Source: an uncultured Bacteroidales bacterium
Lineage (GTDB): Bacteria; Bacteroidota; Bacteroidia; Bacteroidales; Bacteroidaceae
Direction of reading: 5' to 3'
Assembly (NCBI GenBank): GCA_902801485.1
Contig: CADCIP010000003.1
Coordinates: forward strand, 92,332 to 156,331
DNA: 64,000 nt
In this document: in pieces, positions 7,121 through 40,572 of the stretch
Position numbering within the stretch: position 1 is the stretch's first letter
Layout of the letters: each line of letters starts with the position of its first letter
Translations under genes and position numbers: made by a program
The notes under the pieces: generated by a model
Seen by the model: only the letters and a program-made list of their open reading frames with translations
Database searches by the model: none
Told to the model about the DNA's origin: nothing

Positions 7121-8464
7121 TCAGTTAAAATTGACAGGTGTCTGGACAGCAGCAGTTGTAAGAACTAATTCATAGTTATTGAAAGAGCGACGCAGTTCCA
7201 CTTTCTTCAGAATAGAACATGATTTCTTTGTAAGTATTTGAATATCATGAATATAATTATAATAATTATTATTATACAATAATACTGCGGTTTGTTTGAC
7301 GGGTAATATAATTAATGTTTTATTATTAATATTTTTAATTACGTTGATACCGTTTGTCTCATCCTTTATAACTGTTCCATCGGGTATATTCACAATGAAG
7401 ATCTCACCATCATTTGATATTTTTACCAGAGCCTCTTCTGGGATATCAGCAATTATGTCGTCAGCAGGTAGGATGTTCTCGTTTTCTGTAACAGCAATAC
7501 TTTCTACTTTTGGTTTGGCAAAGGCAACAACGGCTAATGCCATCAGTACGGGCAGGACAACGGCTTTGGTCATCATCCAGCGATTGGAATTTTTCTTGTG
7601 CATCATTTTAATTCGCTTTTTTAGTGAATGGTGACTCAGATTGTTGCCAAGGGTCTGCAGTCGATTGCCAACGGCCTTTGTCACGAGTAAAAGTTGATAT
7701 GTCTTTGCATCGATGCCTTGATTAAGTACAGCGTTGTCCGCCTCGTATTCGTGAACAGCTTTCAGGTCGCGTTCCAGCAGATAGACAAAGGGGTTGAACC
7801 ACTGAATGGCTTTCACTACCTCAAGGAGTAGCAGCTCCCAGGAGTGACCCAGGCGGATGTGAGCCTGTTCGTGAGCCAGGATGGGCTTGCGCAGTCGCTC
7901 GTAATCCGATACGCTGATAATTATATAATGTAAGAAACTATAGGGCGGAAACTCACCACCATGTATCACTATGGTATTCCCTTCTTTATCTTTGGTACTT
8001 GTACCACCCTTCGTCTCCCTCCAGAAACGGAACAGCTGGAAAAGGAAGAATCCAATGGAAGCTAATACACCAGCTAAATAAACAGCCTCACCCCCAACCC
8101 CTCTCCAAAGGGCGAGGGGAGATAGGTCTATTGTTGTAATGATATCTGTTTCGGAAACTTCCTGTTCATAATTCCCTTCTTCCATATTACTCCCCCCTTT
8201 CATGGGTGAGGTGCTAAGGGAGTTCCCCTCATCCATATTACTCCCCTCTCCCTTTGGGGAGGAGTTGGGGGTGAGGCTGGAGATTGTGAGGAAGCCGGGT
8301 TTGTCCATTGTCAGTTGTACGGCTGGCAGTACCAGCGACACTACCATAATACTCAGCAATGCCAAGCGGTTGAACCTGTGAAACGTCTCGCGGCTCAACA
8401 GCAAAGCAAACCCTCCGTATAGGAGCGCCAGTAACAAAGCAGATTTTAGCAAGTATATCATCAT
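7121..8464 (-). CDS. BlaR1-like M56 family membrane metallopeptidase (sensor), with palindrome-encoded insert
   Basis: The N-terminal hydrophobic start is typical of M56 proteins (MMIYLLKSALLLALLYGG, with RETFHRFNRLALL after it), which is why the start at 8464 is chosen over an upstream ATG whose extra codons come from a palindromic repeat. The zinc motif HEQAH lies near residue 197, with a membrane-proximal WFNPFVYLLERDL segment. A transmembrane helix near 280 is followed by a periplasmic C-terminal tail of unknown fold. Such proteins sense envelope signals and cleave a BlaI repressor, here the gene just upstream. Residues about 63-126, between the second and third helices, are largely encoded by three copies of the GC-rich palindrome family (peptides NSSPKGEG, STSPMKGG, LALWRGVGGEA). 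The domain is otherwise intact. Confidence 0.88.
   Translation of the reverse strand: MMIYLLKSALLLALLYGGFALLLSRETFHRFNRLALLSIMVVSLVLPAVQLTMDKPGFLTISSLTPNSSPKGEGSNMDEGNSLSTSPMKGGSNMEEGNYEQEVSETDIITTIDLSPLALWRGVGGEAVYLAGVLASIGFFLFQLFRFWRETKGGTSTKDKEGNTIVIHGGEFPPYSFLHYIIISVSDYERLRKPILAHEQAHIRLGHSWELLLLEVVKAIQWFNPFVYLLERDLKAVHEYEADNAVLNQGIDAKTYQLLLVTKAVGNRLQTLGNNLSHHSLKKRIKMMHKKNSNRWMMTKAVVLPVLMALAVVAFAKPKVESIAVTENENILPADDIIADIPEEALVKISNDGEIFIVNIPDGTVIKDETNGINVIKNINNKTLIILPVKQTAVLLYNNNYYNYIHDIQILTKKSCSILKKVELRRSFNNYELVLTTAAVQTPVNFN
8086..8277. repeat. Three palindromic elements inside the blaR1-like coding region
   Basis: Copies lie at about 8086-8121 (CCTCACCCCCAACCCC then CTCC...GAGGGGAG), 8190-8225 and 8241-8277 (CTCCCCTCTCCCTTTGGGG then AGTTGGGGGTGAGGC). 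All are read through in frame. Confidence 0.8.
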
Positions 8465-8468
8465 ATTT

Positions 8469-8498
8469 CGGACCCCTCCGACCCCCTTTAAGGGAAGA
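8469..8498. repeat. Palindromic element between blaI and blaR1-like genes
   Basis: CGGACCCCTCCGACCCCCTT followed by AAGGGAAG sits immediately upstream of the chosen blaR1-like start and supplies the codons of a spurious N-terminal extension. Confidence 0.6.
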
Positions 8499-8549
8499 GA
8501 TGGGAATTTTTTATAACCATTATTCAAATATTCTTTTCACTCTCAGTTG

Positions 8550-8963
8550 TCATTTGTCAACTCTCCCTAACGGGGTTGGGGACTCTATTAGTTCGAGGAT
8601 TTCTTTCAGATCACTTTCTGAAAGCTCTTCATTCTGAATCAGGAACGAGCAGAAACGTTTCGCAGAGTTCCCGAAGAGCGTACTCTTCACATCATTCAGC
8701 ACCTGAGTAGTGTATTTCTCGCGTGTGAGCATGGGCGAATAATAGAAGGTACGCCCCGTAACATCTTTTCTATGATGCTCCACATAGCCTTTGGCCTCCA
8801 GAATCTTCAGGAAAGTACCTACGGTAGTATAGGCAGGCTGTGGTTCGGGGTACTTTGCCACTATCTCGTGAACGGTAAGAGCCTGGGGGATGTCCCACAG
8901 AACATTCATAACCTCCATTTCCGCCTTTGTCAGCGCCTTCATTATCTTAGAACTATTCTTCAT
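8550..8963 (-). CDS. BlaI/MecI-family transcriptional repressor
   Basis: This 137-residue winged-helix repressor begins with the typical LTKAEMEVMNVLWDIP and continues with PAYTTVGTFLKILEAKGYVEH (helix-turn-helix and wing), then a dimerisation region (KSTLFGNSAKRFCSFLIQNEELS). The downstream M56 gene is its expected sensor protease. The last residues (ESPTPLGRVDK) are encoded by a palindrome-like GC-rich repeat at 8561-8585, so the natural C-terminus has been replaced or extended. It probably represses its own operon from the promoter at 8985-8993. Confidence 0.93.
   Translation of the reverse strand: MKNSSKIMKALTKAEMEVMNVLWDIPQALTVHEIVAKYPEPQPAYTTVGTFLKILEAKGYVEHHRKDVTGRTFYYSPMLTREKYTTQVLNDVKSTLFGNSAKRFCSFLIQNEELSESDLKEILELIESPTPLGRVDK
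8561..8585. repeat. Palindrome-family remnant encoding the BlaI C-terminus
   Basis: CTCTCCCTAACGGGGTTGGG followed by GACTC is a shortened member of the GC-rich palindrome family, in frame with the repressor gene. Confidence 0.55.
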
Positions 8964-8984
8964 TGTATTTTTGGTTTTTCTACC

Positions 8985-8993
8985 GCAAAGTTA
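8985..8993 (-). promoter_or_regulatory. -7 promoter box for the blaI-blaR1 pair
   Basis: TAACTTTGC on the minus strand, 22 bases before the ATG at 8963, matches the Bacteroidetes consensus. The dyad expected for BlaI autoregulation was not recognised. Confidence 0.7.
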
Positions 8994-9206: not shown

Positions 9207-9390
9207 AAAGTTTAGAGTTGATAGTTTAGAGTTGATAGTTTAGAGTTGATAGTTTAGGGTGATGTGTAGAACATACGTCTAGCAGCCAAGGGCTGCGATA
9301 ACTCCTGAACGAAACGAAGTGGAGTGATAACTTCTGAGCGTTAGCGATAACTTCTTTAACTCCTAAGTGAAACGATAACTCCTTTAATAA
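9207..9390. repeat. Composite word array upstream of hydrolase 1
   Basis: Three copies of a 15-bp unit (GTTTAGAGTTGATA plus a base) are followed by GTGTAGAACATACGTCTAGC, a small GCAGCC/GGCTGC hairpin, and then ATAACTYC words separated by GAACGAAACGA- and GAGCGTTAGCGA-type spacers. The array ends 9 bases before the ATG. A related composite precedes ispG at 34763-34975. Confidence 0.7.
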
Positions 9391-10710: not shown

Positions 10711-12039
10711 ATGAAATATAAAATGCTGAAAATAAATTCTTTCCGCCTCTCTCTTCTCTCCTCCTTGCGGGGGAGCTGGAGGGAGGTCTTTTTCTTCTTC
10801 TCGATGGTTTTTGCCCTTTCTGTGCAAGCTCAGGAGGGAATTTGGTCGGGCGAACTCGAAGCCCAGGGTATCAAGCTTCCTCTCTTCTTTAACTTCACCG
10901 CCGATGGCTGCACCCTCGATTCTCCCTCACAGGGCGTGAAGGGATTAAAGGCCGAAAAAAGCTATACCGACGATGGTAAACTCAAAGTCACTATCCCTTC
11001 CATAAATGCATCTTACGAGGGCGTTTACGCTTTGATCGTTATCTCCGGCAACTATACCCAGAACGGATTCTCCTTCCCCCTTACCCTCAAGGGCGTTACT
11101 CGTCCGCAGACTCCTAAGGGTCCCTTCCCTTATAAGACCGAAGAGGTGAAGTTCCGGAACGGAGACTTTATCTTCAACGGCACTTTGGCGCTGCCCGAAA
11201 ACTGCACAGCACAGACACCCGTGGTACTCTTTGTCACGGGAAGCGGACAGCAGGACCGCGATGAAAACATGTTTTTTGAGCATAAACCCTTTGCCGTTAT
11301 TGCCGATGCCCTTGCTCGTAACGGCATAGCTTCCTTACGATATGAAGATCGCGGCTACGGCGATTCAACCGTTCATTTCCTCAACTACAATACTCACGAT
11401 TTCAAGGATGATGCCGCAGCAGGTCTCTCTTTCCTCCGCAAGCGCTTCCAAAAGGTGGGTATTATCGGCCATTCCGAGGGTGGTACCATAGCCCTTATGC
11501 TCGCAGCCGAAGGCAAGACCGACTTTATTGTTTCTCTTGCAGGTATGGTCGTTTCAGGAAAGGAAACCCTCCTGTGGCAGAACCGCGTTAGCTTAGAGGC
11601 ATCTGGTCTTCCCAAAGAAGTTATCGACCAGTATATAAACGTCATCAGCAACCTCTTCGATAAAGCTATCGAGGGAAAACTGGAAAGTATCGATTTCTCC
11701 TTGGCTCCCGATGCTCTGAAGCCCGCGCTCCAACAGAGCATCAAGCAGTTCTCTATGCCTTATTATCAGCACATCCTAGCGGTTGATGTCCGTCCTCTGT
11801 TGCCACAGATCAAGTGTCCCGTGCTTGCCCTCAACGGAAAGAAAGACACACAGGTCAACTATCAGCCTAATTTAGAGGCATTGGACAAGGGTCTCACAGC
11901 TAAGCATCAAACGGTGGCACTGGATAATCTCAACCACCTCTTCCAGCACTGCACCACTGGCAACCTCATGGAGTACCAGCAGATAGAGGAAACCTTTGCT
12001 CCTGAAGCCCTCCAGCAAATTCTGGAATGGATTAAATAA
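10711..12039 (+). CDS. Exported alpha/beta hydrolase (esterase/acyl hydrolase-like)
   Basis: This is the intact member of the tandem pair. Its nucleophile elbow is GHSEGG (Ser255), the acid is Asp379 (NGKKD) and the histidine is His409 (NHLF), with oxyanion-side VTGSGQQDRDE. The N-terminal beta domain is shared with hydrolase 1. The signal peptide is odd. Hydrolase 1 has a normal 20-residue leader, whereas here a palindrome-family element at about 10745-10787 has been read into the n-region (SSLRGSWREV). The hydrophobic core (VFFFFSMVFALSVQAQ) and the cleavage site remain. Periplasmic or surface location is expected. The substrate is unknown; similar proteins are annotated as acyl esterases. 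Confidence 0.88.
   Translation: MKYKMLKINSFRLSLLSSLRGSWREVFFFFSMVFALSVQAQEGIWSGELEAQGIKLPLFFNFTADGCTLDSPSQGVKGLKAEKSYTDDGKLKVTIPSINASYEGVYALIVISGNYTQNGFSFPLTLKGVTRPQTPKGPFPYKTEEVKFRNGDFIFNGTLALPENCTAQTPVVLFVTGSGQQDRDENMFFEHKPFAVIADALARNGIASLRYEDRGYGDSTVHFLNYNTHDFKDDAAAGLSFLRKRFQKVGIIGHSEGGTIALMLAAEGKTDFIVSLAGMVVSGKETLLWQNRVSLEASGLPKEVIDQYINVISNLFDKAIEGKLESIDFSLAPDALKPALQQSIKQFSMPYYQHILAVDVRPLLPQIKCPVLALNGKKDTQVNYQPNLEALDKGLTAKHQTVALDNLNHLFQHCTTGNLMEYQQIEETFAPEALQQILEWIK
10745..10787. repeat. Palindromic element inside a signal-peptide coding region
   Basis: CCTCTCTCTTCTCTCCTCC then TTGCGGGGGAGCTGGAGGG is inserted between the start codon and the hydrophobic core of hydrolase 2, in frame. Confidence 0.65.
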
Positions 12040-12240
12040 CGATAACGTGAACGATAACGATAACTTTAATCGGTTATCGGCCCTCTCTCCTAAGAGAGAA
12101 AGTTGAGAGTTGATAGTTTAAAGTTGAGAGACAGTTTATAAAGTAAATAGTGCCGCCACTGGCGGAGTAAAATAGTACTTCAAACCTGCTACTCTAAACT
12201 TCAAACACTGACTCTAAACTCTAAACTCTAAACTCTAAAA
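12038..12240. repeat. Word arrays before the TlpA lipoprotein gene
   Basis: AACGATAAC repeats (12040-12065) lead to a short CCTCTCTCCTAAGAGAG palindrome, then AGTTGAGAGTTGATAG words, and finally five copies of CTCTAAA(C) ending at the ATG. No -7 box is visible, so transcription may come from the hydrolase genes. Confidence 0.65.
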
Positions 12241-18719: not shown

Positions 18720-18739
18720 ACTCGCAAATTAAAAATACT

Positions 18740-18773
18740 CGTTATACCGTTATACCGTTATGACGTCATAACG
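18740..18773. repeat. Left flanking array with 18-bp perfect palindrome
   Basis: Tandem CGTTATAC words end in CGTTATGACGTCATAACG at 18756-18773, a perfect 18-bp palindrome. A copy with one mismatch lies on the far side of the gene at 19642-19659. Confidence 0.75.
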
Positions 18774-18792
18774 AAAAAAAGAATAAAGAACA

Positions 18793-19533
18793 ATGGAAAT
18801 AAAACGATTCGGATATTTCTGGCTGGACACTTGGGTGATGGCTAATGTGATTCAACTGGCGACACAGGATTTCTGCACTCGCTTCCTGAACCATACCAAT
18901 GACCCTTGTGGGCGTCAGTTCGACCAGATGACGCAGGCAGCACGTTCGGCACCAGCAAACATCGCAGAGGGCAATTCGCGCCACTCCACATCTAAGGAGA
19001 CAGAGATGAAGCTGACGGATGTGGCCCGTGCAACGCTCTCAGAACTGGCGAATGATTATCTGAATTGGTTGCTCCGGCACGAGCAGGCTCCTTGGTCTAT
19101 ACATTCTTCAGAGTATGCGCAGGTATCGAGGATACCATTGGAAAAGCCTTGTTACGAGGAAGATGTGCAGCACCAGAGCAGCCTGCATATCCTGAAGCAG
19201 AAGCATCGCTTTGACACTTGGTTGCAGCAGGATGATTCCATCATCGTTGCCAACTGCATTCTGGTGCTTTGCAACCGTCTGATCATGATGATTAGCCGTC
19301 AGTTAGAGAACCAGCTGGCAACATTCCGTGTGGAGGGCGGATTCACGGAAGCCCTGACAGCAGAACGACTGGCCCATCGCACAGAGAAGAGCCGCCAAGC
19401 CGATGCACCGCTCTGCCCCATCTGTGGCAAGCCCATGATAAAGCGTATGGCCAAGAAAGGCATCAATTCAGGCAAAGAGTTCTGGAGCTGCAGCAACTAT
19501 CCCGAATGCAACGGCACAAGGAAAATCCAATAA
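18793..19533 (+). CDS. Four-helix-bundle (S23/Avd-like) protein fused to a topoisomerase-type C4 zinc finger
   Basis: The N-terminal 200 residues carry the signature of S23-type four-helix bundles (QMTQAARSAPANIAEGNSR near residues 47-65; compare QLRRSVMSVPINIAEGFGR in the 41.6-kb gene). The C-terminal 40 residues are a C4 zinc ribbon as in topoisomerase I tails (CPICGKPM, then FWSCSNYPECNGTRKI). Proteins of this layout are annotated as four-helix-bundle suffix-domain proteins; their role is unknown, but a nucleic-acid-binding function is likely. The gene is bracketed by CGTTATAC-type arrays and a pair of 18-bp palindromes, which makes a 0.9-kb unit resembling a small mobile or repeat-borne cassette. 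Confidence 0.85.
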   Translation: MEIKRFGYFWLDTWVMANVIQLATQDFCTRFLNHTNDPCGRQFDQMTQAARSAPANIAEGNSRHSTSKETEMKLTDVARATLSELANDYLNWLLRHEQAPWSIHSSEYAQVSRIPLEKPCYEEDVQHQSSLHILKQKHRFDTWLQQDDSIIVANCILVLCNRLIMMISRQLENQLATFRVEGGFTEALTAERLAHRTEKSRQADAPLCPICGKPMIKRMAKKGINSGKEFWSCSNYPECNGTRKIQ

Positions 19534-19662
19534 AACGCCGTCATATAGAATCGTTATAACGTTATACCGTAATACCGTCATAACGAAGCCACCATCGAAA
19601 TAACGATATAACGAAGCCATATCGCCGTTATAACGATATAACGTTATGACGTGATAACGACC
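19534..19662. repeat. Right flanking array with palindromes
   Basis: A dense array of CGTTATAAC, ATACCGT and ATAACGA words includes CGTTATAACG palindromes and CGTTATGACGTGATAACG at 19642-19659, a one-base variant of the left palindrome. Confidence 0.75.
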
Positions 19663-19702
19663 TTTCAAATTTTAACTGTGAATTGTGAAACTGTGAAAAT
19701 AA

Positions 19703-26840: not shown

Positions 26841-26877
26841 CTCTCCCCTCTCCTCGGAGAGGGGTTGGGGGTGAGGC
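26841..26877. repeat. Palindromic element abutting the XRE gene stop
   Basis: Near-consensus copy: CCCCTCTCCTCGGAGAGGGG then TTGGGGGTGAGGC. It touches the XRE stop codon. Confidence 0.85.
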
Positions 26878-27080
26878 TACTCCCTGTACTCCAGAATGTC
26901 GCCCGGCTGGCAGTCGAGGGCCTGACAGATGGCTTCGAGGGTGGAGAAACGCACGGCTTTCGCTTTGCCGGTCTTTAGGATGGATAGGTTGGCAGCCGTT
27001 ATGCCAATCTTCTCGGCAAGTTCCTGTGATGACATTTTCCTCTTGGCCATCATCACATCTACATTAACTACTATACTCAT
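26877..27080 (-). CDS. Small XRE-family (YozG-like) regulator
   Basis: This 67-residue Cro/C1 helix-turn-helix protein (MAKRKMSSQELAEKIGIT, then LSILKTGKAKAVRFSTLEAI and LDCQPGDILEY) is the standard partner of DUF2975 membrane proteins. The start at 27080 (MSIVVNVDVMMAKRK) is preferred; a further upstream ATG falls in an ATGGTAAAT word array. It is last in a four-gene leftward operon. A truncated second copy of its first 29 codons is at 62642-62728. Confidence 0.93.
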   Translation of the reverse strand: MSIVVNVDVMMAKRKMSSQELAEKIGITAANLSILKTGKAKAVRFSTLEAICQALDCQPGDILEYRE

Positions 27081-27082
27081 AA

Positions 27083-27153
27083 CGTCATTTACCATTTAAA
27101 GATTTACCATTTACCATTTTATACACTCCCCCAAGGGGGAGCGGGGAGGGGGC
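27083..27153. repeat. TTTACCA word array plus palindromic element
   Basis: Three copies of ATTTACCA(T) lie next to CTCCCCCAAGGGGGAGCGGG. The palindrome directly follows the stop codon of the third DUF2975 gene. Confidence 0.7.
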
Positions 27154-27864
27154 CTAAATGGTTAACTCCTGTTCGTCCTGCAACTCCTTGCCCCTTAGGA
27201 TAATCTGAGAAAAAACCATTAGCGTAAGGCCGAGAATAAGATAAATACCATTATTGCCATAATCCCAACTGATATTAAGGTATGACAAATCTATCAGTTT
27301 TTTTAGTATAATTGATGATATATAGCCATATGTAATGTTTACCAAACTCATACCACAAATCAAACCGCCAACTAATTCCACCTGACGGGCGACATTGGCC
27401 ACAAAGACTTCTCCTTTGTAAACAGAAACAATCAAATTCCAACCTATGACAATAATAAAGAGAGCAAATACCCCTTGAAATATAATATTAATTATTTGAA
27501 TATAATAAAGGGTTGGCACATATTCACGCTCAGTAGGAATCATAACCTCTGCTTTTTTAATATGCATAACGCAAGATTTCTCGCCCGCATTATACCCCAA
27601 ATACTTCTCCCGTCCAAAACGGCATGATTTTACATTAACTTCAAATGGGCGATATGGTTTCATCAAGGCCAACATGCCATCCACTGCTTTTATTGTTCTT
27701 GCTGTGCATTCCTTGGGTAAAGGCCCAATAGTCAGTGCTTTCTCTTCTTTTCCCGTATCTACGTAAATAACAGTCTTATGTTCCAACAAGGAATTTATAT
27801 CAAGTAATTCTGCCAGAAAAGCAACAGCTAACAAAACGCTGTAAATTTTCAATTTATTTTTCAT
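27154..27864 (-). CDS. DUF2975 membrane protein (third paralogue)
   Basis: The layout is an N-terminal helix (KIYSVLLAVAFLAELL), an extracytoplasmic loop of about 100 residues, then three further helices and the conserved tail LRGKELQDEQELTI. The family pairs with small XRE regulators and may be a sensor or membrane-stress module; its biochemical role is unknown. The first residues (MKNKLKIYSVLL) and the whole tail are shared with the 27940-28680 gene, pointing to tandem duplication. The loop domain differs between the paralogues. Confidence 0.85.
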   Translation of the reverse strand: MKNKLKIYSVLLAVAFLAELLDINSLLEHKTVIYVDTGKEEKALTIGPLPKECTARTIKAVDGMLALMKPYRPFEVNVKSCRFGREKYLGYNAGEKSCVMHIKKAEVMIPTEREYVPTLYYIQIINIIFQGVFALFIIVIGWNLIVSVYKGEVFVANVARQVELVGGLICGMSLVNITYGYISSIILKKLIDLSYLNISWDYGNNGIYLILGLTLMVFSQIILRGKELQDEQELTI

Positions 27865-27896: not shown

Positions 27897-27932
27897 TTCC
27901 CATCGCCCACGGGAGAGGGGTTAGGGGTGAGG
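27897..27932. repeat. Palindromic element after the second DUF2975 gene
   Basis: Half-consensus copy (GGGAGAGGGGTTAGGGGTGA then GGC) between the stop of the second and the start of the third paralogue. Confidence 0.75.
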
Positions 27933-27939
27933 CTTTTTT

Positions 27940-28680
27940 TCAGATAGTCAGCTCCTGTTCGTCCTGCAACTCCTTGCCCCTTAGGATAATCTGAGAAACA
28001 ATCATCAGGATAAGACCGAAGATGACAGAAGACAACTCACCGACGATGGGGAAGTCAATGTCATAGCCTGCCATCAGGAGATTCTTCTTCATTATTGATA
28101 AAATAATATAGGCCACAATTCTGCCCACAACCCAGAGTGCGACTAGCAATTTGCCTGCTTTTTCCAGTCCCTTTGCTATCTGGGTCACGAACACTTCACC
28201 CTTATAAACAGAACGCAGAATCTTCCAGACAATAACAAACAGCCAAATATAGAAAGGAACAAAAGCAAAAGCCAGGACAACCGAAAATACGAAGGGAATG
28301 TTTTTCTGACTCTCCTCTATTGGAATCTTTATTTTAACCGTCTGCATGTCCACCATCACTTGCTGACCATTTGTAAGTCGGCTGTACAGATAATGGTCCA
28401 AGCCTCCTCGTTTACGGACGGGTACACCAATCTCGAATGTGCACTTGTCCTGTGCATGCCAATTTGCAGAAGTCTGTGTAACAGGAGTGCCATCAATAGT
28501 ATCAGCCCAAGTCTGGGTGTTAATATCTATTTTTGCAAAGTTCTCATTGAGGGAATCCAAGATAAGTTCTTCTCCCGGTCGGTTCGTCCATGAATGATGA
28601 TAAACATTAAAATACTTGCAGACCGAAGCAACCAGAACCACTACCAGCAAAACGCTGTAAATTTTCAATTTATTTTTCAT
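27940..28680 (-). CDS. DUF2975 membrane protein (second paralogue)
   Basis: It has the same layout as its neighbours: an N-terminal helix, a loop of about 110 residues, three helices and the tail LRGKELQDEQELTI. The ATG at 28680 gives MKNKLKIYSVLLVVV, identical in its first twelve residues to the third paralogue, and is chosen over an ATG 24 bases upstream. The loop (residues about 30-130) shows VQTVKIKI-type beta strands. The function is unknown; operon context with an XRE repressor suggests a regulated membrane module. Confidence 0.85.
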   Translation of the reverse strand: MKNKLKIYSVLLVVVLVASVCKYFNVYHHSWTNRPGEELILDSLNENFAKIDINTQTWADTIDGTPVTQTSANWHAQDKCTFEIGVPVRKRGGLDHYLYSRLTNGQQVMVDMQTVKIKIPIEESQKNIPFVFSVVLAFAFVPFYIWLFVIVWKILRSVYKGEVFVTQIAKGLEKAGKLLVALWVVGRIVAYIILSIMKKNLLMAGYDIDFPIVGELSSVIFGLILMIVSQIILRGKELQDEQELTI

Positions 28681-28712
28681 AACGCTTATAATTATAATGT
28701 TCAATGTTTTAA

Positions 28713-28749
28713 GTTCCCCTCTCCTCGGAGAGGGGTTAGGGGTGAGGCT
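28713..28749. repeat. Palindromic element after the first DUF2975 gene
   Basis: Full consensus copy, identical over about 38 bases to the copy at 39305-39343. Confidence 0.85.
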
Positions 28750-31217: not shown

Positions 31218-31432
31218 AGCCCCTCCGTCCTTCCCCTCCGTCGCGAATGGGGATTCGCTCCCCTTTGTGGGGCCGTAGCCACATTTAGTGGCTCCTCTAA
31301 AGACCCCAGTCGCCCCTTGGGGGAATGATTAATTGATAAGCCCCCCTCCAACTCCCCCCGAGGAGGGAGTGTTCTTATTAGTTGATATTTGGCCCTCCTC
31401 CTCGGGGGAGGGTTGGGAGGGGGCTTCCATTT
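31218..31432. repeat. Cluster of palindromic elements across the blaI/blaR1 junction
   Basis: Several GC-rich palindromes lie in tandem, including CTCCCCCCGAGGAGGGAG and CCTCCTCCTCGGGGGAGGG, plus CGCCCCTTGGGGG. They encode the BlaI C-terminus and the region before the blaR1-like start. Confidence 0.75.
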
Positions 31433-31805
31433 CGTGCAAGAAGTTGATCAGTTCCTCCTCCGATATTTCCTCTTCGCGTATGAAGTAGCTGAGCATCGAG
31501 CGCAGGCTGCCTCCGAAGAAGGTGCGCTTCACGTCGTGCATGGCCTTGCGGACGTATTCGGCTTTGCCTATACGGGCGATGTAATGATGCGTCTTGCCTT
31601 CACCATCCTTCTTGAAGTGGTCCACGAAGCCCTTCTCGTACAGCATCCGCATCTCGTTGGCCAATGTGGTGTAGGCTGGCTGAGGCTCGGGCAGCAGGTC
31701 GTAAATCTCGCGCGCTGAGACAGAGTGGTTGATGTCCCAGATGATGGACATAATGTCGTACTCCGTCTTGCTGAGGATGCCCTCTCTTCTGTTGGTTGTT
31801 TTCAT
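31329..31805 (-). CDS. BlaI/MecI-family repressor with palindrome-encoded C-terminal tail
   Basis: The winged-helix core is intact (LSKTEYDIMSIIWDINHS, PAYTTLANEMRMLYEKGFVDH, FFGGSLRSMLSYFIREEEIS). The start at 31805 is set by the promoter at 31829-31837, which lies inside a longer open frame. The last 30 or so residues (from EAPSQPSPEEEG to SSGGVGGG and the end) come from two palindromic elements. The first BlaI in this window also ends in a palindrome-derived tail, so the same end of two homologous genes has been hit. Confidence 0.92.
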   Translation of the reverse strand: MKTTNRREGILSKTEYDIMSIIWDINHSVSAREIYDLLPEPQPAYTTLANEMRMLYEKGFVDHFKKDGEGKTHHYIARIGKAEYVRKAMHDVKRTFFGGSLRSMLSYFIREEEISEEELINFLHEMEAPSQPSPEEEGQISTNKNTPSSGGVGGGLIN

Positions 31806-31828
31806 ATCGCGTTTCGTTTGTTTCTGCT

Positions 31829-31837
31829 GCAAAATTA
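31829..31837 (-). promoter_or_regulatory. -7 promoter box for the second blaI-blaR1 pair
   Basis: TAATTTTGC on the minus strand, 24 bases before the ATG at 31805. Confidence 0.7.
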
Positions 31838-31930
31838 AGTGCGAAGGGAAAGCAAAGCCTAAAAAGAAGCAGAAAAACTTCTCCAATCCGTCAGAATTTA
31901 ACCTTTATTAATAGAAATACCCAAGGTGCT

Positions 31931-32058
31931 ATCGTCTTTAACTTCTCTAACTTCCTTAACTTCTTTAACTTCCTTAACTTCTTTAACTTCTCTAACTTCT
32001 TTAACTTCTCTAACTTCTTTAACTTCTCTAACTTCTCTAACTTCTTTAACTTCTTTCT
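31931..32058. repeat. 11-bp tandem array (TAACTTCTYTA/TAACTTCCTTA)
   Basis: Roughly eleven near-perfect copies of an 11-bp unit with C/T variation (CTCTAACTT, CTTTAACTT, CCTTAACTT) lie between divergent blaI and rpoN promoters. There are no unique spacers, so it is not a CRISPR. Confidence 0.85.
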
Positions 32059-32080
32059 AAAAAAAAGTAGCCATACAAAG

Positions 32081-32118: not shown

Positions 32119-33609
32119 ATGGCAAAAAACAACAAACAGACACAGGAACAGGTTCAGGTACAGACCGAGCAGCAGGTGCAGGTGCAGACACTTACGCCCC
32201 AACAGGTGATGCTGGTTCGGCTGACCGAAATGCCCATAGAGGCCCTGCAGCAACGCATAGACAATGAGTGTCTGGAGAATCCCTGGCTGGAGAAAGCCCC
32301 CTCCCTCGATCCCTCCCCCGAGGAGGAGGGAAGCTGGGCGGCAGAAGGTCCCCTCTCCTCGGAGAGGGGGGAAGGGGGTGAGGCCTCCTACGACTACCGA
32401 AGCGAGGACGATATTCCCGACTATATGCTACGCTCAAGCTACACCAAGAACACGCCCGAGAATGTGGAGTACGAAGATACCCTTACGTTCTACGACAAGC
32501 TGAAGGCACAGATGACCGACTTCGACCTGACGGAGCGCCAGCAGCAGCTGTTGGAATACCTGATAGGCGAACTGGACGGTAACGGCCTGTTGGGGAAGCC
32601 CTTGATACAGATAGTTGATGAAGCCGAGATATACCAGGGCATAGAGACAACGGAGAAGGAAATGCTGGGTGTGCTGGCTATCCTGCAACAGTTCGAGCCT
32701 GCCGGCGTGGGAGCCCGCTCGCTACAGGAATGTCTTATCCTACAGATAAAACGCGATGAGAAGAACCCTTGTCAGCGCCTGATGCTGCAGGTGATGGAGA
32801 AATACTACGATGATTTCCTGCATAAGCGTTGGGCCGACATACAGCGCCGGTTGAAACTCTCGGCTATCCAGCTGGAGGAACTGAAACGCGAGATTAAACG
32901 CCTGAACCCAAGGCCCGGCTCGTCTGTCGGAGAGAAGAGCGTGCTGATAGGTCATCAGATTCTGCCCGACTTCATAGTAGAGGCCGACGAGGACGGTCAT
33001 ATCACCATGCAGCTGAACGGCGGGAGTCCTTCGTCGCTGGTAATCAGTCCGGATGCCACGGAGATGCTTCAGACCTACGAGAACATGCAGGGACAGCAGT
33101 TGAGCAAGGCCGTTCAGGAAGAAATAAGGTTTACGCGCGAATACGTGGAGCGTGGCCGTATCTTCATAGATGCCCTGGCACAGCGTCGGGAGAGTATGAT
33201 AAAGACCATGAACGCCATCATAAAACTGCAACGCCCCTTCTTCCTGGATGGCGACGATACATTGCTGAAACCCATGAAGCTGGAGGATGTTGCCAATCTG
33301 GCCGGTTACGATATCAGCACCGTGAGCCGTGTGTGCAACAGCAAGTATGTGCAGACGCCTTTCGGCATCTACTCCCTGAAGCATTTCTTTACCCATAAGG
33401 CAGTGCAGAAGGACGATGCAGAAGTTGCCACCTCGAAGCAGGTGATGTCTGTTATACAGGAGCTGATAGAAGGCGAGGACAAACAGAATCCGCTGAGCGA
33501 CGAGAAACTGGCCGTTCTGCTGAAACAGAAGGGGTTCGACATTGCCCGCCGTACGATAGCCAAATACCGTGAGTTTATGAAGATACCCATAGCCCGCATG
33601 CGTAAATAA
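32119..33609 (+). CDS. rpoN: RNA polymerase sigma-54 factor, with palindrome-encoded linker
   Basis: Region I (LTPQQVMLVRLTEMPIEAL, near residue 25) begins after a glutamine-rich start. The core-binding domain lies at about 115-310 (DLTERQQQLLEYLIGELDGNG), a HTH region follows (LEDVANLAGYDISTVSRVC), and the RpoN box ARRTIAKYRE is at 476-485. Length (496) is normal. Residues about 60-89 (DPSPEEEGSWAAEG, then PLSSERGEGGEA) are encoded by two palindromic elements, in the acidic linker between region I and the core domain where insertion is tolerated. No enhancer-binding activator gene is in the window. Confidence 0.97.
   Translation: MAKNNKQTQEQVQVQTEQQVQVQTLTPQQVMLVRLTEMPIEALQQRIDNECLENPWLEKAPSLDPSPEEEGSWAAEGPLSSERGEGGEASYDYRSEDDIPDYMLRSSYTKNTPENVEYEDTLTFYDKLKAQMTDFDLTERQQQLLEYLIGELDGNGLLGKPLIQIVDEAEIYQGIETTEKEMLGVLAILQQFEPAGVGARSLQECLILQIKRDEKNPCQRLMLQVMEKYYDDFLHKRWADIQRRLKLSAIQLEELKREIKRLNPRPGSSVGEKSVLIGHQILPDFIVEADEDGHITMQLNGGSPSSLVISPDATEMLQTYENMQGQQLSKAVQEEIRFTREYVERGRIFIDALAQRRESMIKTMNAIIKLQRPFFLDGDDTLLKPMKLEDVANLAGYDISTVSRVCNSKYVQTPFGIYSLKHFFTHKAVQKDDAEVATSKQVMSVIQELIEGEDKQNPLSDEKLAVLLKQKGFDIARRTIAKYREFMKIPIARMRK
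32297..32384. repeat. Two palindromic elements inside rpoN
   Basis: First copy: CCCTCCCCCGAGGAGGAGGG. Second copy: CCCCTCTCCTCGGAGAGGGG then GGAAGGGGGTGAGGC. The second is close to the family consensus and should be a recent insertion. The reading frame is kept through both. Confidence 0.88.
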
Positions 33610-34256: not shown

Positions 34257-34763
34257 ATGAAAGCAATTGTAAGTATTATCATGGGCAGCACAAGCGACCT
34301 GCCCGTTATGGAGAAAGCCGCTAAGTTCTTGGACGAGATGGAGATTCCCTTCGAGATGAATGCTCTCTCGGCCCACAGAACACCTCAGGAAGTGGAGGAA
34401 TTTGCCAAGAATGCAGAAATGCGCGGCATAAAGGTGATTATAGCAGGAGCCGGAATGGCTGCCGCTCTGCCTGGCGTTATTGCTGCCAGCACTACCCTAC
34501 CCGTCATAGGTGTTCCCATCAAGGGTATGTTGGACGGACTGGACGCTATGCTGAGCATCATCCAGATGCCTCCAGGCATACCTGTGGCTACCGTAGGCGT
34601 GAACGCTGCACAGAATGCAGGCATACTGGCGGCTGAGATGATAGCCCTTGGCGACGAGGTGCTGTCCATCAAGATGAAGGCCTACAAGGAAGACCTGAAG
34701 CAGAAGATAGTAAAGGCCAATCAGGATTTGGCTATGGTGAAATATAACTATAAGACTAACTGA
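34257..34763 (+). CDS. purE: N5-carboxyaminoimidazole ribonucleotide mutase
   Basis: PurE of purine biosynthesis converts N5-CAIR to CAIR. GSTSDLPVM near residue 10, LSAHRTP near 42 and the AGAGMAAALPGV segment are family landmarks. The start at 34257 (MKAIVSIIMGSTSD) is 4 bases after the membrane protein stop; an upstream in-frame ATG at 34230 overlaps that gene and is rejected. No purK is adjacent. A long AAGTTAAAA array follows. Confidence 0.97.
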   Translation: MKAIVSIIMGSTSDLPVMEKAAKFLDEMEIPFEMNALSAHRTPQEVEEFAKNAEMRGIKVIIAGAGMAAALPGVIAASTTLPVIGVPIKGMLDGLDAMLSIIQMPPGIPVATVGVNAAQNAGILAAEMIALGDEVLSIKMKAYKEDLKQKIVKANQDLAMVKYNYKTN

Positions 34764-34975
34764 AGTTAAAATGGAAGTTAAAATTGGAAGTTAAAATGGA
34801 AGTTAAAATGGAAGTTAAATAGAAGTAAAATTGGAAGTTAAAGGGGAAGTTAAAATGGGAGTTAAAAAGGACGATAGTTATACACGTGCAGAACAAACGT
34901 CCAGCCAGCTTGCTGGCTTAACTTCCTGCGCATAGCGCATAACTCCCCTTTTAACTTCATCTTATAACTCCGGAA
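34763..34975. repeat. GAAGTTAAAATG tandem array with composite tail before ispG
   Basis: About nine copies of (T)GGAAGTTAAAAT are followed by GTGCAGAACAAACGTCCAGC, hairpins GCCAGCTTGCTGGC and TGCGCATAGCGCA, and TAACTTCC/TAACTCC words. The order of parts parallels 9207-9390. Confidence 0.8.
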
Positions 34976-34995: not shown

Positions 34996-36171
34996 ATGAG
35001 ACGACAGACACACGAGGTTAAGATAGGTAAGCTGCGAATAGGCGGTCAGAACAAGGTGGCCGTCCAGAGTATGACCACCTGCAGCACGATGGATACCGAA
35101 GGCTGCATAGAACAGTGCATCCGCATCATAGATGCCGGAGCCGACTTGGTTCGACTCACTACCCAAGGAACGCGCGAGGCTGAGAACCTTCGCAACATAA
35201 AGGCTGGACTGGTGGCTCGCGGCTACGGAGATACGCCCTTGTGTGCCGATGTACACTTCAATCCCAATGTGGCAGATGTGGCTGCTACGATTGTCGAGAA
35301 GGTGCGCATCAACCCAGGCAACTACGTTGATCCAGCCCGTCAGTTCAAGCATCTGGAATATACCGACGAGGAGTACCGGCAGGAGCTGCAGCGTCTGGAC
35401 GACCGCTTCTGCGGCTTCCTGAGTATCTGCCGTGAGCACGGCACAGCCATCCGCATCGGTGTGAACCACGGCTCGCTTTCGGACCGTATCATGAGTCGTT
35501 ACGGCGATACCCCTGCGGGCATCGTAGAGAGCTGCATGGAGTTTCTGCGTATCTGCGAGCGCGAACACTTCCCAGATGTTGTTGTCAGCATCAAGGCCAG
35601 CAATACGGTCATCATGGTAGAGAGCGTCCGTCTGCTGTGCAAGGAGATGGAGAAGGAGGGAATGGACTATCCTCTCCACTTGGGCGTTACAGAGGCAGGA
35701 GAAGGCGAAGACGGCAGACTGAAGAGTGCCGTGGGTATCGGTGCTTTGCTCATCGACGGCATTGGTGACACCATCCGCGTAAGTCTGAGCGAGGAGCCCG
35801 AATGTGAGATTCCTGTGGCACAGAGTATCTTGCAGGCTGCCCGTGTGCAGATGCATAAGCCGGAGTTCATCAGTTGTCCGGGTTGCGGACGTACGCTGTA
35901 CGACCTGCAGGACACCATTCGTCGGGTTAAGGCTGCCATCGAGGAGAAGGCCAAGGCTGATGCTCGCTATCGTACCCTGAAGATAGGTATTATGGGTTGC
36001 ATCGTGAACGGTCCGGGCGAGATGGCAGATGCCGATTACGGCTACGTGGGTGCAGCCAGAGGAAAAGTCTCGCTCTATAAGAATAAGGAATGTGTAGAGC
36101 GGAATGTCCCCGAAGCAGAAGCCGTAGAACACCTCATTGCCTTTATTGATAACGATTTGGCCCCCCTCTAA
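34996..36171 (+). CDS. ispG: 4-hydroxy-3-methylbut-2-enyl diphosphate synthase (GcpE/IspG), compact form
   Basis: IspG acts in the methylerythritol phosphate pathway. It has a TIM-barrel start (IGGQNKVAVQSMTTCSTMD), VHFNPNVA, and C-terminal Fe-S ligands in SCPGCGRT and MGCIVNGPGEM. The segment TEAGEGEDGRLKSAVGIGAL followed by DTIRVSLSEEPECEIP is the signature of the large three-domain class usual in Bacteroidetes. Yet the protein is only 391 residues: after EIPVAQSILQAARVQ it goes straight to the Fe-S domain, without the long middle domain. The last residues (DLAPL) and the stop come from a palindromic element. Identity is certain; the domain loss is an inference from family knowledge. Confidence 0.95.
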   Translation: MRRQTHEVKIGKLRIGGQNKVAVQSMTTCSTMDTEGCIEQCIRIIDAGADLVRLTTQGTREAENLRNIKAGLVARGYGDTPLCADVHFNPNVADVAATIVEKVRINPGNYVDPARQFKHLEYTDEEYRQELQRLDDRFCGFLSICREHGTAIRIGVNHGSLSDRIMSRYGDTPAGIVESCMEFLRICEREHFPDVVVSIKASNTVIMVESVRLLCKEMEKEGMDYPLHLGVTEAGEGEDGRLKSAVGIGALLIDGIGDTIRVSLSEEPECEIPVAQSILQAARVQMHKPEFISCPGCGRTLYDLQDTIRRVKAAIEEKAKADARYRTLKIGIMGCIVNGPGEMADADYGYVGAARGKVSLYKNKECVERNVPEAEAVEHLIAFIDNDLAPL

Positions 36172-36193
36172 CTCCCCCAAAGGGGAGAGAGGG
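36160..36193. repeat. Palindromic element at the ispG stop codon
   Basis: CCCCCCTCTAACTCCCCC then AAAGGGGAG, the second subfamily, supplies the ispG stop codon. Confidence 0.75.
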
Positions 36194-36252
36194 AACGATA
36201 ACCGTAAACCGTAAACTGTAAACCGTAAACAAATTCTCAATTCTCAATTTAT
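36194..36252. repeat. GTAAACC word array before rmuC
   Basis: Four copies of CCGTAAA(C) followed by ATTCTCAATTCTCAATTTA; it mirrors the array at 5255-5334. Confidence 0.65.
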
Positions 36253-37717: not shown

Positions 37718-39049
37718 TTAAAAGTGTTTCAGCGGCATAAGGAGCAGGACGGGGTTCGCCTTGATATCCAGCTTCTTTATGAACGCTTGCGTCTTACTGT
37801 CAAATTCGGCAGCCTCGGGATGAGCGAGATAGTACTTCAGGTTTACCGGTCTTTCGATGGAGATGAGTGTGCCATCTGTTGTCAGGGTCTGTGCTCCGCT
37901 TAAGCAAAGACCTTGCAGCGTCCAGACTCTTGGTACGCAAACCCAGCGGCTGTTACCTGTTTTGCGGTCATAGACGAGGATTGAATGCAGAGCTTCCCAA
38001 CTCCATGAGAACCTCTCCTCTGTTTCTTTGTCAATCTTGATATTGTACTTCTTTATATAGCGGCACAGTAGGAAGTCTGGCGAGACGAGCAGTGGGAGGT
38101 TGTAATCGATATTGGGCACATAGCGATTCTCGGCAGCACGCACACGCTGGGATTTTGTGATGGTTGAGTCGTTGTTGAAAGGCAGCGAACCTATGCCTAC
38201 GCTGTCACCTCTTACCAGATAGCGGGCTACGGCTCCTTCGGAGCCCACTTGCCAGATGGTGTCGGAATACACTTTAGCATAGAAGAGCTCGTCGCCTGAG
38301 TTAGCCAGGCAGGCTTCATAATCGTAGGTGTAAACCTTGTTGGGACGGGTAAGGATAAAACCATGAGGCATACCTTCGGGGTCACGTACTGTGAGTTGCG
38401 GAGCAAAGTCAAATGCCGGCCTTAGGTTGCTTATCAGATGGTTCTGTGTAAAGCCCATGATGTTTCCATAACTAAAGAAGACAAGTTCGTGGCGTAGCAG
38501 GTTACCCTCGTAGTCATAGGACAGAAGTTCGCCTTCTCCGCCATCGTATTCTCCCCAATACATCAGGCAAACCTCCTTGGCCTGCCTATTCACTGCCATA
38601 ACAATCTGGTTTCTATCCTTGTAGACGTCCGACGGTTTCAGCTGTGCCACCAGACTGCCGTCTTTACGGAAGATAAAGCCAGCCCTCTCCTTGATCAATT
38701 TTTTCTCATCCTCCGTCTCTGCGCCAAGGACGAAAATCAGGTCGCCGTCAGTGTCTATTTTTTCTATCCAGCCGATGTGGAAGCCGGGTGTAGGAGCTAA
38801 GGGCAGCAGGGTTACTTCGCCAACCAGTGATGGAAGAGTGTCTCCGTAGGAAGGTAGATAATCGGGACAGATATTACGGAGTGTATTATCGGTACGCGCA
38901 GGTAACATGGGGATTTTTTTCAGGTTTTCCACAGGCAACCAGGCATCACAGTCGTAATCCGTAATGGCTACATTGTTTGTAGATGGTGTTTGGCAGCTGG
39001 CAAGAAGCAGCACGACTGCCAGCAAGGGAAAGATTCGTTTCATTTGCAT
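37718..39049 (-). CDS. 6-bladed beta-propeller lipoprotein
   Basis: The leader ends in a lipobox (VVLLLASC). The 420-residue body fits the 6-bladed beta-propeller family common in Bacteroides (VTLLPLAPTPGFHIGWIEKI; FIFRKDGSLVAQL; LLSYDYEGNLLRH), with one repeat roughly every 60 residues. These are outer-surface lipoproteins of unknown ligand. An ATG at 39043 (MKRIF) is an equally good start. The upstream spacer holds a diverged -7 box (TTACTTTGC on the minus strand). The gene is divergent from the TPR regulator gene. Confidence 0.85.
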   Translation of the reverse strand: MQMKRIFPLLAVVLLLASCQTPSTNNVAITDYDCDAWLPVENLKKIPMLPARTDNTLRNICPDYLPSYGDTLPSLVGEVTLLPLAPTPGFHIGWIEKIDTDGDLIFVLGAETEDEKKLIKERAGFIFRKDGSLVAQLKPSDVYKDRNQIVMAVNRQAKEVCLMYWGEYDGGEGELLSYDYEGNLLRHELVFFSYGNIMGFTQNHLISNLRPAFDFAPQLTVRDPEGMPHGFILTRPNKVYTYDYEACLANSGDELFYAKVYSDTIWQVGSEGAVARYLVRGDSVGIGSLPFNNDSTITKSQRVRAAENRYVPNIDYNLPLLVSPDFLLCRYIKKYNIKIDKETEERFSWSWEALHSILVYDRKTGNSRWVCVPRVWTLQGLCLSGAQTLTTDGTLISIERPVNLKYYLAHPEAAEFDSKTQAFIKKLDIKANPVLLLMPLKHF

Positions 39050-39222
39050 TTCGTTTTTTGTTTGTTTTACATTTTTTGAATTTTATTCGCTGCAACGTTT
39101 TTCTGCTGCAAAGTAACGTCGAAACGCCAATTCCTGCAAAAAAAGGCAGTAAACAAAAGTAAACAAACCGCATTTTTACTGGTGTTTACTCCCAAAAAGG
39201 CAGAAATCTCAGGAAAAAGCCT

Positions 39223-39231
39223 TATCTTTGC
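39223..39231 (+). promoter_or_regulatory. -7 promoter box abutting the TPR regulator start
   Basis: TATCTTTGC is followed after three bases by the ATG, so the message would be leaderless. Confidence 0.65.
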
Positions 39232-39234
39232 AGC

Positions 39235-40572
39235 ATGAAACAGCCTCACCTCCAACCCCTCTCCGAGGAGAGGGGCTTCCTACGAAAAGTTGGCAGCTTC
39301 CTTTTCTCCCCTCTCCTCGGAGAGGGGTTAGGGGTGAGGCTGTTGCTCCTTCTCCTCCTTTTCTCCTGCCGCAAACAGGTAGAGACGCCGCTTCAGATTC
39401 TGTACGCCGAGACCGTCTTGGAGAACAATTCCGACGCTCAGTTTGCTCTCTATCTGCTCAGCGAGGTGGAGGATACTATCTGCCATTATCCCCAATCTAT
39501 CCAGATGCAATACCGACTGGCGCAGGCAATGGCTCAGAACGCCAAGGGAGAGGCTGTGGATTCCCTGCTACCACCGCTCACGGAGTGGTTTGATGCCAAG
39601 GGACCCGCTAAGGAAGCCGCCCGCGTGCATCACCTATCGGCCCTTTTGCTACTGCAGGAAAGCCGCATGGAGGAGGCTCGCAAGGAACTCTCCCAAGCCC
39701 TGAAAGTCGACCCTTCCTATAAACCAAGCCTGTTCCTGACCGCCTATCTCTGCCTTTATAGCGGATCGTATGCCGAGGCGCTGGAATATTTCATGCGCAT
39801 AGAAAAGGACGATCAGTCCTCTTATTTCGTCCTGCAGGGAGCCTATGCCTTGCGCAGAAGCCTAAATGCCAATAGCAGCGATTTTGCCCAAGCTCTGAAG
39901 GGCGAAGAACTGGAGAATGTCCGCCAGATGCTTACCGATATGGACTTCTGCCTGCGCTATTTCCAGGAGCATCCCGATGCTGACCAAGCCGACATCATCC
40001 ATCGTTGTGCCGCAGCACGCGACTCATTGTTGCGCTCGCAGTATCATTCGCAGGATAATCTTTCGGAGGCCGCCCCACTTGAGGAAAGTGCTTTGGAGCA
40101 GAAAGACAGCGGAATTATGTCACTCCCCCTTTGGGGGAGCTGGGTGGGGGCTTTTGTTGTATTTTTGGCATTGGCAATTCTGATTGCCGCCCTCGTGATA
40201 ATCTTCCGCCGCCGCAATAAGCCAATGGCTGAGCCGCAACCTATCTTCAACGAGATTATCAGCCGCATGGAACAACTGGCCGATGGCGGACAGCAACCCT
40301 CGGCAGAGGAATGGGAACAGCTTCATGCCTTTGTGCGCGACCGCTACCCTCTCCTACTCCGCAAGTTGGAGAAGCAGAACCTCTCGCGCAGCGAAATGCA
40401 GATGTGTCTTCTCTCCGCCGTAGATATGCGCCAGAAACAAGTGGCAACGCTGCTGAACATCAGTCCGCAGAACCTCCGCAACCAGCGCCTCCGCCTCCTT
40501 AGTCGCATCAAGGGCCAACCCTGCGAAAGCGTTTCGGACTTCACAGATTGGCTCCGAGAGTTCCAAGGCTAA
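39235..40572 (+). CDS. TPR-containing membrane regulator with C-terminal HTH-like domain
   Basis: A lipobox-like LLLLLLLFSC is followed by a periplasmic TPR-like region (about residues 50-270), one transmembrane helix near 305-325 (FVVFLALAILIAALVIIF), a short coiled segment, and a C-terminal LuxR-like HTH (MCLLSAVDMRQKQVATLL, then ISPQNLRNQRLRL). This is a Bacteroidetes one-component membrane regulator layout. Residues 4-37, before the hydrophobic core, are encoded by two palindromic elements in inverted order (peptides LQPLSEERGF and SPLLGEGLGVRL). A third element encodes SLPLWGSWVG beside the transmembrane helix. The signal it senses is unknown. Confidence 0.75.
   Translation: MKQPHLQPLSEERGFLRKVGSFLFSPLLGEGLGVRLLLLLLLFSCRKQVETPLQILYAETVLENNSDAQFALYLLSEVEDTICHYPQSIQMQYRLAQAMAQNAKGEAVDSLLPPLTEWFDAKGPAKEAARVHHLSALLLLQESRMEEARKELSQALKVDPSYKPSLFLTAYLCLYSGSYAEALEYFMRIEKDDQSSYFVLQGAYALRRSLNANSSDFAQALKGEELENVRQMLTDMDFCLRYFQEHPDADQADIIHRCAAARDSLLRSQYHSQDNLSEAAPLEESALEQKDSGIMSLPLWGSWVGAFVVFLALAILIAALVIIFRRRNKPMAEPQPIFNEIISRMEQLADGGQQPSAEEWEQLHAFVRDRYPLLLRKLEKQNLSRSEMQMCLLSAVDMRQKQVATLLNISPQNLRNQRLRLLSRIKGQPCESVSDFTDWLREFQG
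39244..39343. repeat. Inverted pair of palindromic elements at the 5' end of the TPR regulator gene
   Basis: The element at 39244-39277 and the one at 39306-39340 are near-perfect reverse complements over about 33 bases, each itself palindromic. The mRNA could form a very stable stem starting ten bases from its 5' end. Confidence 0.85.
40121..40151. repeat. Palindromic element next to the transmembrane segment of the TPR regulator
   Basis: CACTCCCCCTTTGGGGGAGC then TGGGTGGGGGC, in frame just before the membrane helix. Confidence 0.75.

Follow-up and report, generated by a model that had tools for sequence, protein, structure and literature searches.

The DNA considered here, referred to as the window, is a 64,000-nucleotide stretch of contig CADCIP010000003.1 and part of the 3.6 Mb genome, in 85 contigs, of an uncultured rumen Bacteroidales bacterium (Bacteroidaceae); the nearest named relative is the sheep-rumen metagenome-assembled genome (MAG) 'Bacteroidaceae bacterium RGIG6899', whose RpoN is 98% identical to that of the window. 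The window carries a family of GC-rich repeats resembling repetitive extragenic palindromes (REPs), termed family A, in which a tail, AGCCTCACCCCYAA, is joined to a GC hairpin, CCCCTCTCC-nn-GGAGAGGGG, often in inverted pairs like those of REPINs (REP doublets forming hairpins); copies lie between genes and also, with the reading frame kept open, inside them. A search of the window for direct and inverted repeats converged on CCCCTCTCC-TC-GGAGAGGGG followed by TTAGGGGTGAGGCT, or AGCCTCACCCCYAACCCCTCTCC-nn-GGAGAGGGG when read from the tail side; an initial pattern with a 3-base loop returned one palindrome, and the tail motif was used instead. The window holds eight family-A motifs (up to 4 mismatches) and seven GC-rich hairpins with a stem of at least 7, compared with 0–2 hairpins in each of 20 random windows from a first-order Markov model. 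Two sister repeats share the same layout, namely family B, seen in the first half-element of rpoN and the tail of BlaI-2, and family C, of the form CTCCCCC-nnn-GGGGGAG with a GGGGAGGGGG tail.

Three genes of the window contain copies in their interior. BlaR1-1 encodes a BlaR1-like M56 peptidase (7121..8527, minus strand; Pfam PF05569, E 1.6e-13; orthologue alignment), and its linker, which is variable among orthologues, holds a family-A inverted pair at 8084..8278 with motifs at 8085–8106 (plus strand, 0 mismatches) and 8256–8277 (minus strand, 2 mismatches); the 195 bp are divisible by three, correspond to 65 codons, and are open in the gene-sense frame (L004). In rpoN, the sigma-54 gene (32119..33609, plus strand; PF04552, PF04963, and PF00309), the linker derives from two decayed half-elements in an open frame, one of family B at 32295..32331 (plus strand; repeat search and linker alignment) and one of family A at 32350..32385 (minus strand; hairpin stem 9, 4 mismatches); in an AlphaFold2 model built from nine sequences (mean predicted local distance difference test score 67), residues 62–122, which hold this linker, score below 50. 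The third gene encodes a tetratricopeptide repeat (TPR) protein (39235..40572, plus strand; recognized from its translation, with TPR Pfam matches below the cut-offs) and contains an internal family-C half-element, in frame, at 40123..40151 (plus strand; hairpin stem 7; exact match to the family-C pattern, G000:C3:132454). Its N-terminal family-A inverted pair (39242..39341, 100 bp; motifs at 39243–39264, plus strand, 1 mismatch, and 39319–39340, minus strand, 0 mismatches) is the weaker case, as it follows the ATG at 39235 and could be untranslated if an in-frame GTG inside the pair is the true start.

Other genic copies are terminal or faint. A family-B half-element at 31393..31423, which forms an inverted repeat with 32300–32330, falls by translation in the C-terminal tail of BlaI-2 (31329–31886, minus strand); a family-C-like half-element recognized by eye (10758..10789, plus strand) lies in the signal peptide of a second esterase-like hydrolase, hydrolase-2 (10711–12039; EstD-like match below the cut-off); and a family-C-like element at 36160..36193 overlaps the stop codon of ispG (34996–36171; PF04551). 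The BlaR1-2 linker TPALSQGEG is a half-copy, and the BlaI-1 3' end a degenerate trace, both judged by eye only. The original prediction had placed in-frame palindromes in at least eight genes, including both blaR1-like genes, both blaI 3' ends, rpoN, hydrolase-2, the TPR gene, and the 3' end of ispG. With interior copies in three genes and terminal or weak ones in three more, fewer than eight are affected: the rpoN claim stands, as do BlaR1-1, the internal TPR copy, and, weakly, BlaI-2; hydrolase-2 and BlaR1-2 remain faint, BlaI-1 drops out, and the ispG claim is not confirmed, the copy contributing just the gene's final codons and stop.

Further copies are intergenic. Family-A singles are found at 26845..26878 (minus strand; hairpin stem 9, 0 mismatches), adjoining the stop codon of a small helix-turn-helix-like gene named by eye; at 27903..27934 (minus strand; degenerate hairpin, motif 27912–27933 with 0 mismatches), 3' of the DUF2975 gene 27940–28704; and at 28716..28749 (minus strand; sequence, Pfam, and hairpin/motif scan), 3' of a DUF2975 gene. 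A family-C-like copy at 27126..27153 (plus strand; hairpin stem 7) lies 3' of the DUF2975 gene 27154–27864 (minus strand). The three family-A singles each stand just 3' of a stop codon; the copies at 26845 and 28716, which had been proposed for building a profile model, are thus not examples of in-gene insertion.

Beyond the window, the genome contains 70 family-A matches at up to 3 mismatches against 6 for a reversed control; with 2 mismatches as the limit, the figures are 60 and 0. Related genomes were scanned, as had been proposed, at the stricter threshold: 36 congeners carry 0–40 matches each, with at least one in 22 and the maximum of 40 in G018, and orthologues with and without inserts were found (argF' and a polysaccharide deacetylase, described below). 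Outside the family but within the order, four of 24 genomes have 1–4 matches; a phylum-wide set of 198 genomes, the present one included, has 22 with a match, and only the present genome exceeds 6. Similar 33-mers occur in 10 plasmid records (eight cyanobacterial, one Xanthomonas, and one Cupriavidus), with weak E-values of 2e-3 to 7e-2. It is therefore not the motif that is special to the genus but its abundance, within the set searched. Of 37 genomes, 13 contain the family-C pattern, and every one of these is among the 23 of the genus; its control was detected in none.

A collection of 141 units from 11 genomes comprises 37 pairs and 104 singles, with many copies convergent across a variable spacer. 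In G018, for example, pairs read AGCCTCACC...GGTGAGGCT and measure 117, 120, 129, 132, or 156 bp, and lengths of 90, 117–120, and 129 bp turn up repeatedly. The repeat ends in AGCCTC/GAGGCT; among 173 copies, the outer base, immediately 5' of GCCTC, was A in 154 and G in the other 19, and the bases just outside the elements are A-rich on the left and T-rich on the right. No direct repeat of at least 4 nt adjoins any of 36 pairs (0/36), and the absence of a target-site duplication is what single-strand transposition of REPINs leads one to expect. Two inverted REPs, each with tail and hairpin, thus flank a variable spacer, and singles occur as remnants; by layout, the repeat is of the REP/REPIN type.

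How these units relate to reading frames was measured with a codon-usage frame scorer trained on 33 open reading frames (ORFs) of the window and applied to 240 bp on each side of a unit; in a check, 1981 of 2000 segments from its own training ORFs were placed correctly, and less than 1% of shuffled segments rose above the zero threshold. Four of the 141 units lie at contig edges and were dropped, leaving 137. The list includes 58 copies from the present genome (against the 70 counted at up to 3 mismatches) and omits some from other genomes, e.g., C91:15346, C102:16221, C141, and C191 of G018 and C26 and C51 of G013; G035, G020, G002, G019, and G029 are among the genomes outside the test. Both flanks were coding on the same strand and in the same frame for 68 units and in different frames for 17, while 6 units had flanks on opposite strands, 36 had one coding flank, and 10 had neither. 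Accordingly, 68 of the 85 units with same-strand coding flanks keep the frame (28 expected at one third; p 1.3e-18), and 58 of these 68 are open from flank to flank (58/85, p 5e-11), 53 of them flanked on each side by 60 or more open codons. The 10 non-open and 17 different-frame units include intergenic gaps, such as the one around L035, where the genes were named by eye.

These figures bear on the view that the family is one of transcription terminators or ordinary extragenic REPs and that pseudogenes or misannotated gene ends account for the in-gene cases. Many copies are indeed intergenic, three family-A copies of the window immediately following stop codons, and the N-terminal cases possibly lie in a 5' leader. 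Of the 137 classified units, 58 are open in genes, 36 have one coding flank, and 10 have neither, counts that may or may not make the family mostly extragenic, depending on the coding density of the genomes. All 58 have coding sequence on both flanks, pseudogenes would not be expected to hold the frame in 68 of 85 cases, and the argF' product of G018 retains both of its Pfam domains around the insert, so that this explanation is considered improbable.

A second signal concerns codon phase. Counted on the motif strand, open intragenic units have the A of AGCC at the codon start in 42 cases, one position off in 8, and two positions off in 0; motifs that run opposite to the gene give 22, 6, and 0. 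As a baseline, 95 half-elements that do not lie in open genes were read on the motif strand, and their three frames stay open for 48 nt in 79, 81, and 50 cases; stop codons are therefore not the explanation of the bias (p 2e-11 against 79:81:50, or p 5e-7 when the comparison is confined to the first two frames). Collapsing two look-alike copies common to different genomes gives 41:7:0 and 22:6:0. The favoured frame encodes SLTPxPSPxGEG at one end of the element and RGxGGEA at the other. Furthermore, pair length is divisible by three in 18 of 20 open intragenic pairs and in 8 of 16 others (p 0.011), and 19 of the 20 are open in gene-sense frame 0, compared with 8 of 32 strands of the others.

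The preference need not stem from selection on the peptide, and could instead reflect a target rule of the inserting enzyme, by which a target word of fixed codon phase would be chosen. The non-random flanks described above, i.e., the outer A in 154 of 173 copies and the A-rich left and T-rich right neighbours, lend this some plausibility; codon phase, on the other hand, is not directly sensed by an enzyme, and no strong target word is apparent in the flank counts of 36 pairs. Such a rule is rather unlikely. It may also be imagined that the protein never contains the element, because RNase III cuts it out of the transcript, or because splicing or translational bypass removes or skips it. The long complementary arms (near 39 nt in L034, judged by eye) would presumably form a strong RNA hairpin; such removal predicts, however, that frame and length are free to vary, and the in-frame share of 68/85 and the 18/20 against 8/16 for lengths of 3n make it very improbable.

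Comparison of orthologues shows what has happened at individual sites. In G018, argF', which we take from its sequence to be N-acetylornithine carbamoyltransferase (Pfam reports OTCace domains), carries a 120-bp element in the stretch that separates its Pfam domains, OTCace_N ending at residue 181 and OTCace beginning at 268, and the orthologues of G010 and G016, at 92–94% identity, are without it; the comparison covered 30 loci, with five lacking the motif omitted. The argF' gene of the present genome has a heptamer repeat at the insert site, and those of G020 (L114) and G013 (L115) have other GC-rich inserts there, GGGGCAAGGGGCAAGG... and GGAGCAAGGAGC..., respectively. Similarly, the polysaccharide deacetylase of G018 contains a 120-bp element before FRPPHG, and the corresponding loop in 28 further orthologues ranges from none to about 45 residues, with possible remnants in some, e.g., SFTPAKGE and GGEA (30 loci, one omitted, from a search of 81 genomes of the genus). 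In S41, MacB_PCD, and DUF6057 proteins, the insert is spanned by a single Pfam match. The rpoN copies recur as the same DNA in another MAG (L074) and in close form in L078; relatives at 80–85% identity (L075, L077, L078, and L079) have kept similar or diverged copies, L076 at 78% has an unrelated linker, and RpoNs at 43% identity have a shorter, different one.

Such sites might also be ordinary conserved low-complexity linkers, rich in Pro, Ser, Gly, and Glu, with DNA that merely looks palindromic, and it agrees with this that the RpoN and BlaR1 linkers vary in relatives even without an element. Yet the same DNA word and hairpin, often with an inverted partner, recur in genes unrelated to one another as well as between genes, the control patterns match the present genome just 0 to 6 times, and the peptides are missing at these sites in most orthologues compared. 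The original prediction had named the same peptides at the same sites in distant genera as the finding that would speak for linkers; in a partial comparison, the orthologues from outside the genus (RpoN of L080, L081, and L083; argF' of L134, L137, and L140) lack them. The linker explanation is refuted for family A overall and is very unlikely, but it may hold for lone decayed copies such as that of BlaR1-2.

Taken with the pairing, frame, and orthologue data, it is highly probable that family A represents REPIN-like non-autonomous mobile elements whose in-frame copies are tolerated as presumably translated loops. In the proposed sequence of events, two REP copies, each with the AGCCTCACCCCYAA tail and GC hairpin, face one another across a variable spacer and would insert, without target duplication, both between and within genes; within genes, the survivors would be insertions that leave the frame open, favoured by an element length that is often a multiple of three and by tails free of stops in two of the three frames, with the SLTPxPSPxGEG...RGxGGEA frame strongly preferred. 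Selection would then be the cause of the frame preference. The survivors are presumably translated into polar, probably disordered loops of 30–78 residues, which the host proteins would tolerate and which, judging from the few genes examined, would sit mostly in linkers and loops; later decay by in-frame change and deletion would turn them into loops of variable length.

Several observations weigh against this account of REPIN-like insertions. By the frame test, 79 of 137 units are not open within a gene. The scorer misplaces units, e.g., L050, called as lying between opposite strands even though DUF6057 spans the insert, and the BlaR1 pair of the window, called one-side-coding despite its open frame. 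The units are partly non-independent, two copies being common to different genomes by peptide, and G000:C27:3966 and G015:C22:14412 are also alike. The comparison of openness between intragenic and other pairs is partly circular, because open frames defined the intragenic group. At the argF' site, G019 (92–93% identity) has a shorter and different insert, QTLPPFSLSGKEGG, and an exact empty site was not found among the argF' and deacetylase orthologues compared, because neighbouring codons also differ between orthologues. Moreover, among 19 phylum loci outside the genus (one per genome, scored with the window-trained scorer), 8 matches lie in stop-to-stop frames of at least 200 aa and three (L297, L303, and L305) have both flanks coding in one frame, so that in-frame copies seem present outside the genus, at low number.

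The link to a mobilizing enzyme is weak and counts on the same side. As had been predicted, no such enzyme was seen in the window as far as it was looked for. Elsewhere in the genome are two Y1_Tnp proteins, both of which match the NCBIfam model for REP-associated tyrosine transposases (RAYTs) below the cut-off; the RAYT-like genes sought by the original prediction thus exist, but the flanking repeat does not accompany them. One of the two belongs to a long RAYT-like family found in 46 of 81 genomes of the genus. Among 37 genomes, the number of long RAYT-like matches correlates with repeat number (Spearman 0.51, p 0.0014, uncorrected for kinship), and the family is present in 11 of 14 repeat-rich against 8 of 23 repeat-poor genomes (p 0.017, likewise uncorrected). 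The repeat flanks neither of the genome's own Y1 genes nor any of 30 long RAYT-like loci, two of which have a repeat match 0.6 and 1.2 kb away; 4 of 33 among the RAYT-like genes listed have an element no more than 2 kb away, where 0.8 would be expected, at a cut-off chosen post hoc. Mobilization by a RAYT/TnpA-REP-type HUH transposase, perhaps of the long RAYT-like family, is considered likely.

The long RAYT-like Y1 family itself (L033:709–1974, i.e., G000:C3:53861–55060, with relatives L263–L292) consists mostly of proteins of 350–550 aa with an extra C-terminal part, reaches 10 matches in a single genome of the genus, and shows a GCGGCG hairpin within the gene in 6 of 30 loci. Two further candidates were rejected: Y1_Tnp (PF01797) as a whole does not track copy number, as G018 with 40 repeats has no match, which is also unfavourable to the reading as mobile REPINs, and the hairpin of the RAYT genes (GTGCAC...GCGGCG), considered as the family's own REP, has its motif once each in only 3 of 37 genomes.

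Among known systems, the closest in behaviour are the Rickettsia palindromic elements (RPEs), which sit in frame within Rickettsia genes, and the Wolbachia palindromic repeats; according to the available parts of the sources, these are palindromes of about 105–150 bp located in frame in unrelated genes and tolerated by at least one enzyme that others tested (Ogata 2000, 2002, 2005, by way of PMC10969869 and PMC2229807). The present repeat differs in having a host of another phylum, in consisting of GC-rich REP pairs with a variable spacer, and in occupying different positions in congeneric species. It presents the RPE trait of in-frame insertion into protein-coding genes with orthologues that lack it. 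RPE sequences probably look different, and the likeness of the present repeat to RPEs is one of behaviour, which does not imply membership by sequence homology. The predicted Rickettsia-like behaviour is borne out by the 11-genome statistics and the empty or variable orthologue sites, but intragenic REPs are not special to Rickettsia: the accessible portion of one survey describes intragenic REPs of the GTAG and CGTC superfamilies in, e.g., Opitutus terrae and Thauera besides R. conorii, most REPs being intergenic (PMC3733652). These likewise have a short tail and hairpin, occur as singles and dimers, and in some ORFs encode 20–82 residues (PMC3733652, in part); the present repeat ends in AGCCTC, which is neither tag, and combines 58 of 137 units open in genes with a strong frame preference.

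Other parallels concern the transposases. Terminal inverted repeat elements of TIRYT transposases, as presented in the same portion of that survey, also form dimers, and GGGGTGAG of the repeat consensus fits their GGGGWSAS (PMC3733652); the loci examined here, however, yielded no transposase gene with the repeat at its flanks. REPINs moved by RAYTs share the two inverted REPs with spacer, the singles as remnants, and RAYT-like genes in the genome, but RAYTs are described, in the available text, as single-copy (PMC8049555, PMC8266576), whereas many congeners here carry several RAYT-like genes each, without the repeat at their flanks, and many of the elements are intragenic. A literature search that included Prevotella and rumen terms gave no account for this group, most subscription papers being outside its reach, and absence from print is not claimed. 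As RPEs and intragenic REPs are already in print, the kind of element is known; the novelty appears to lie in the host group, in the frame preference as measured here, and in hot-spot loops that vary from one species to another.

A more far-reaching idea is that the REPIN population has adapted to intragenic life, its lengths of 3n and favoured SLTPxPSPxGEG...RGxGGEA frame supplying renewable in-frame surface loops at hot spots such as argF' and the polysaccharide deacetylase; this is put forward tentatively, as a possibility somewhat short of even. If true, the genus would possess a source of loops that speeds the evolution of protein length, and protein-coding palindromes have so far been discussed mostly for Rickettsia and Wolbachia. 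With dozens of species in this rumen genus, the same places can be seen with inserts, with remnants, or empty, which makes insertion, decay, and fitness effects comparable between species, and the measured frame preference renders peptide selection and an insertion rule testable against each other. Inserted loops can also disturb annotation. Completeness estimates for the genus lie between 61 and 100% and reach at least 90% in just 10 of 81 genomes, and this low completeness might be linked to in-gene inserts that disturb marker genes; most genomes from other families in the comparison are of high completeness and were possibly picked for quality.

In addition to the palindromes, the window holds tandem-repeat arrays with units of about 7 to 14 bases at 1427–1495, 5271–5334, 9207–9266, 12177–12239, 31911–32063, 34742–34889, 36200–36247, 41546–42055, 59901–59957, and 62345–62623. 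Similar short tandem repeats appear translated in proteins outside the window, such as NSQLSTLNSQL in argF' of L132 and a long STLNSQ run in L043. Finally, CGTTATAC / CGTTATGACG repeat units at 18739–18783 and 19551–19669 bracket the ORF at 18793–19533.

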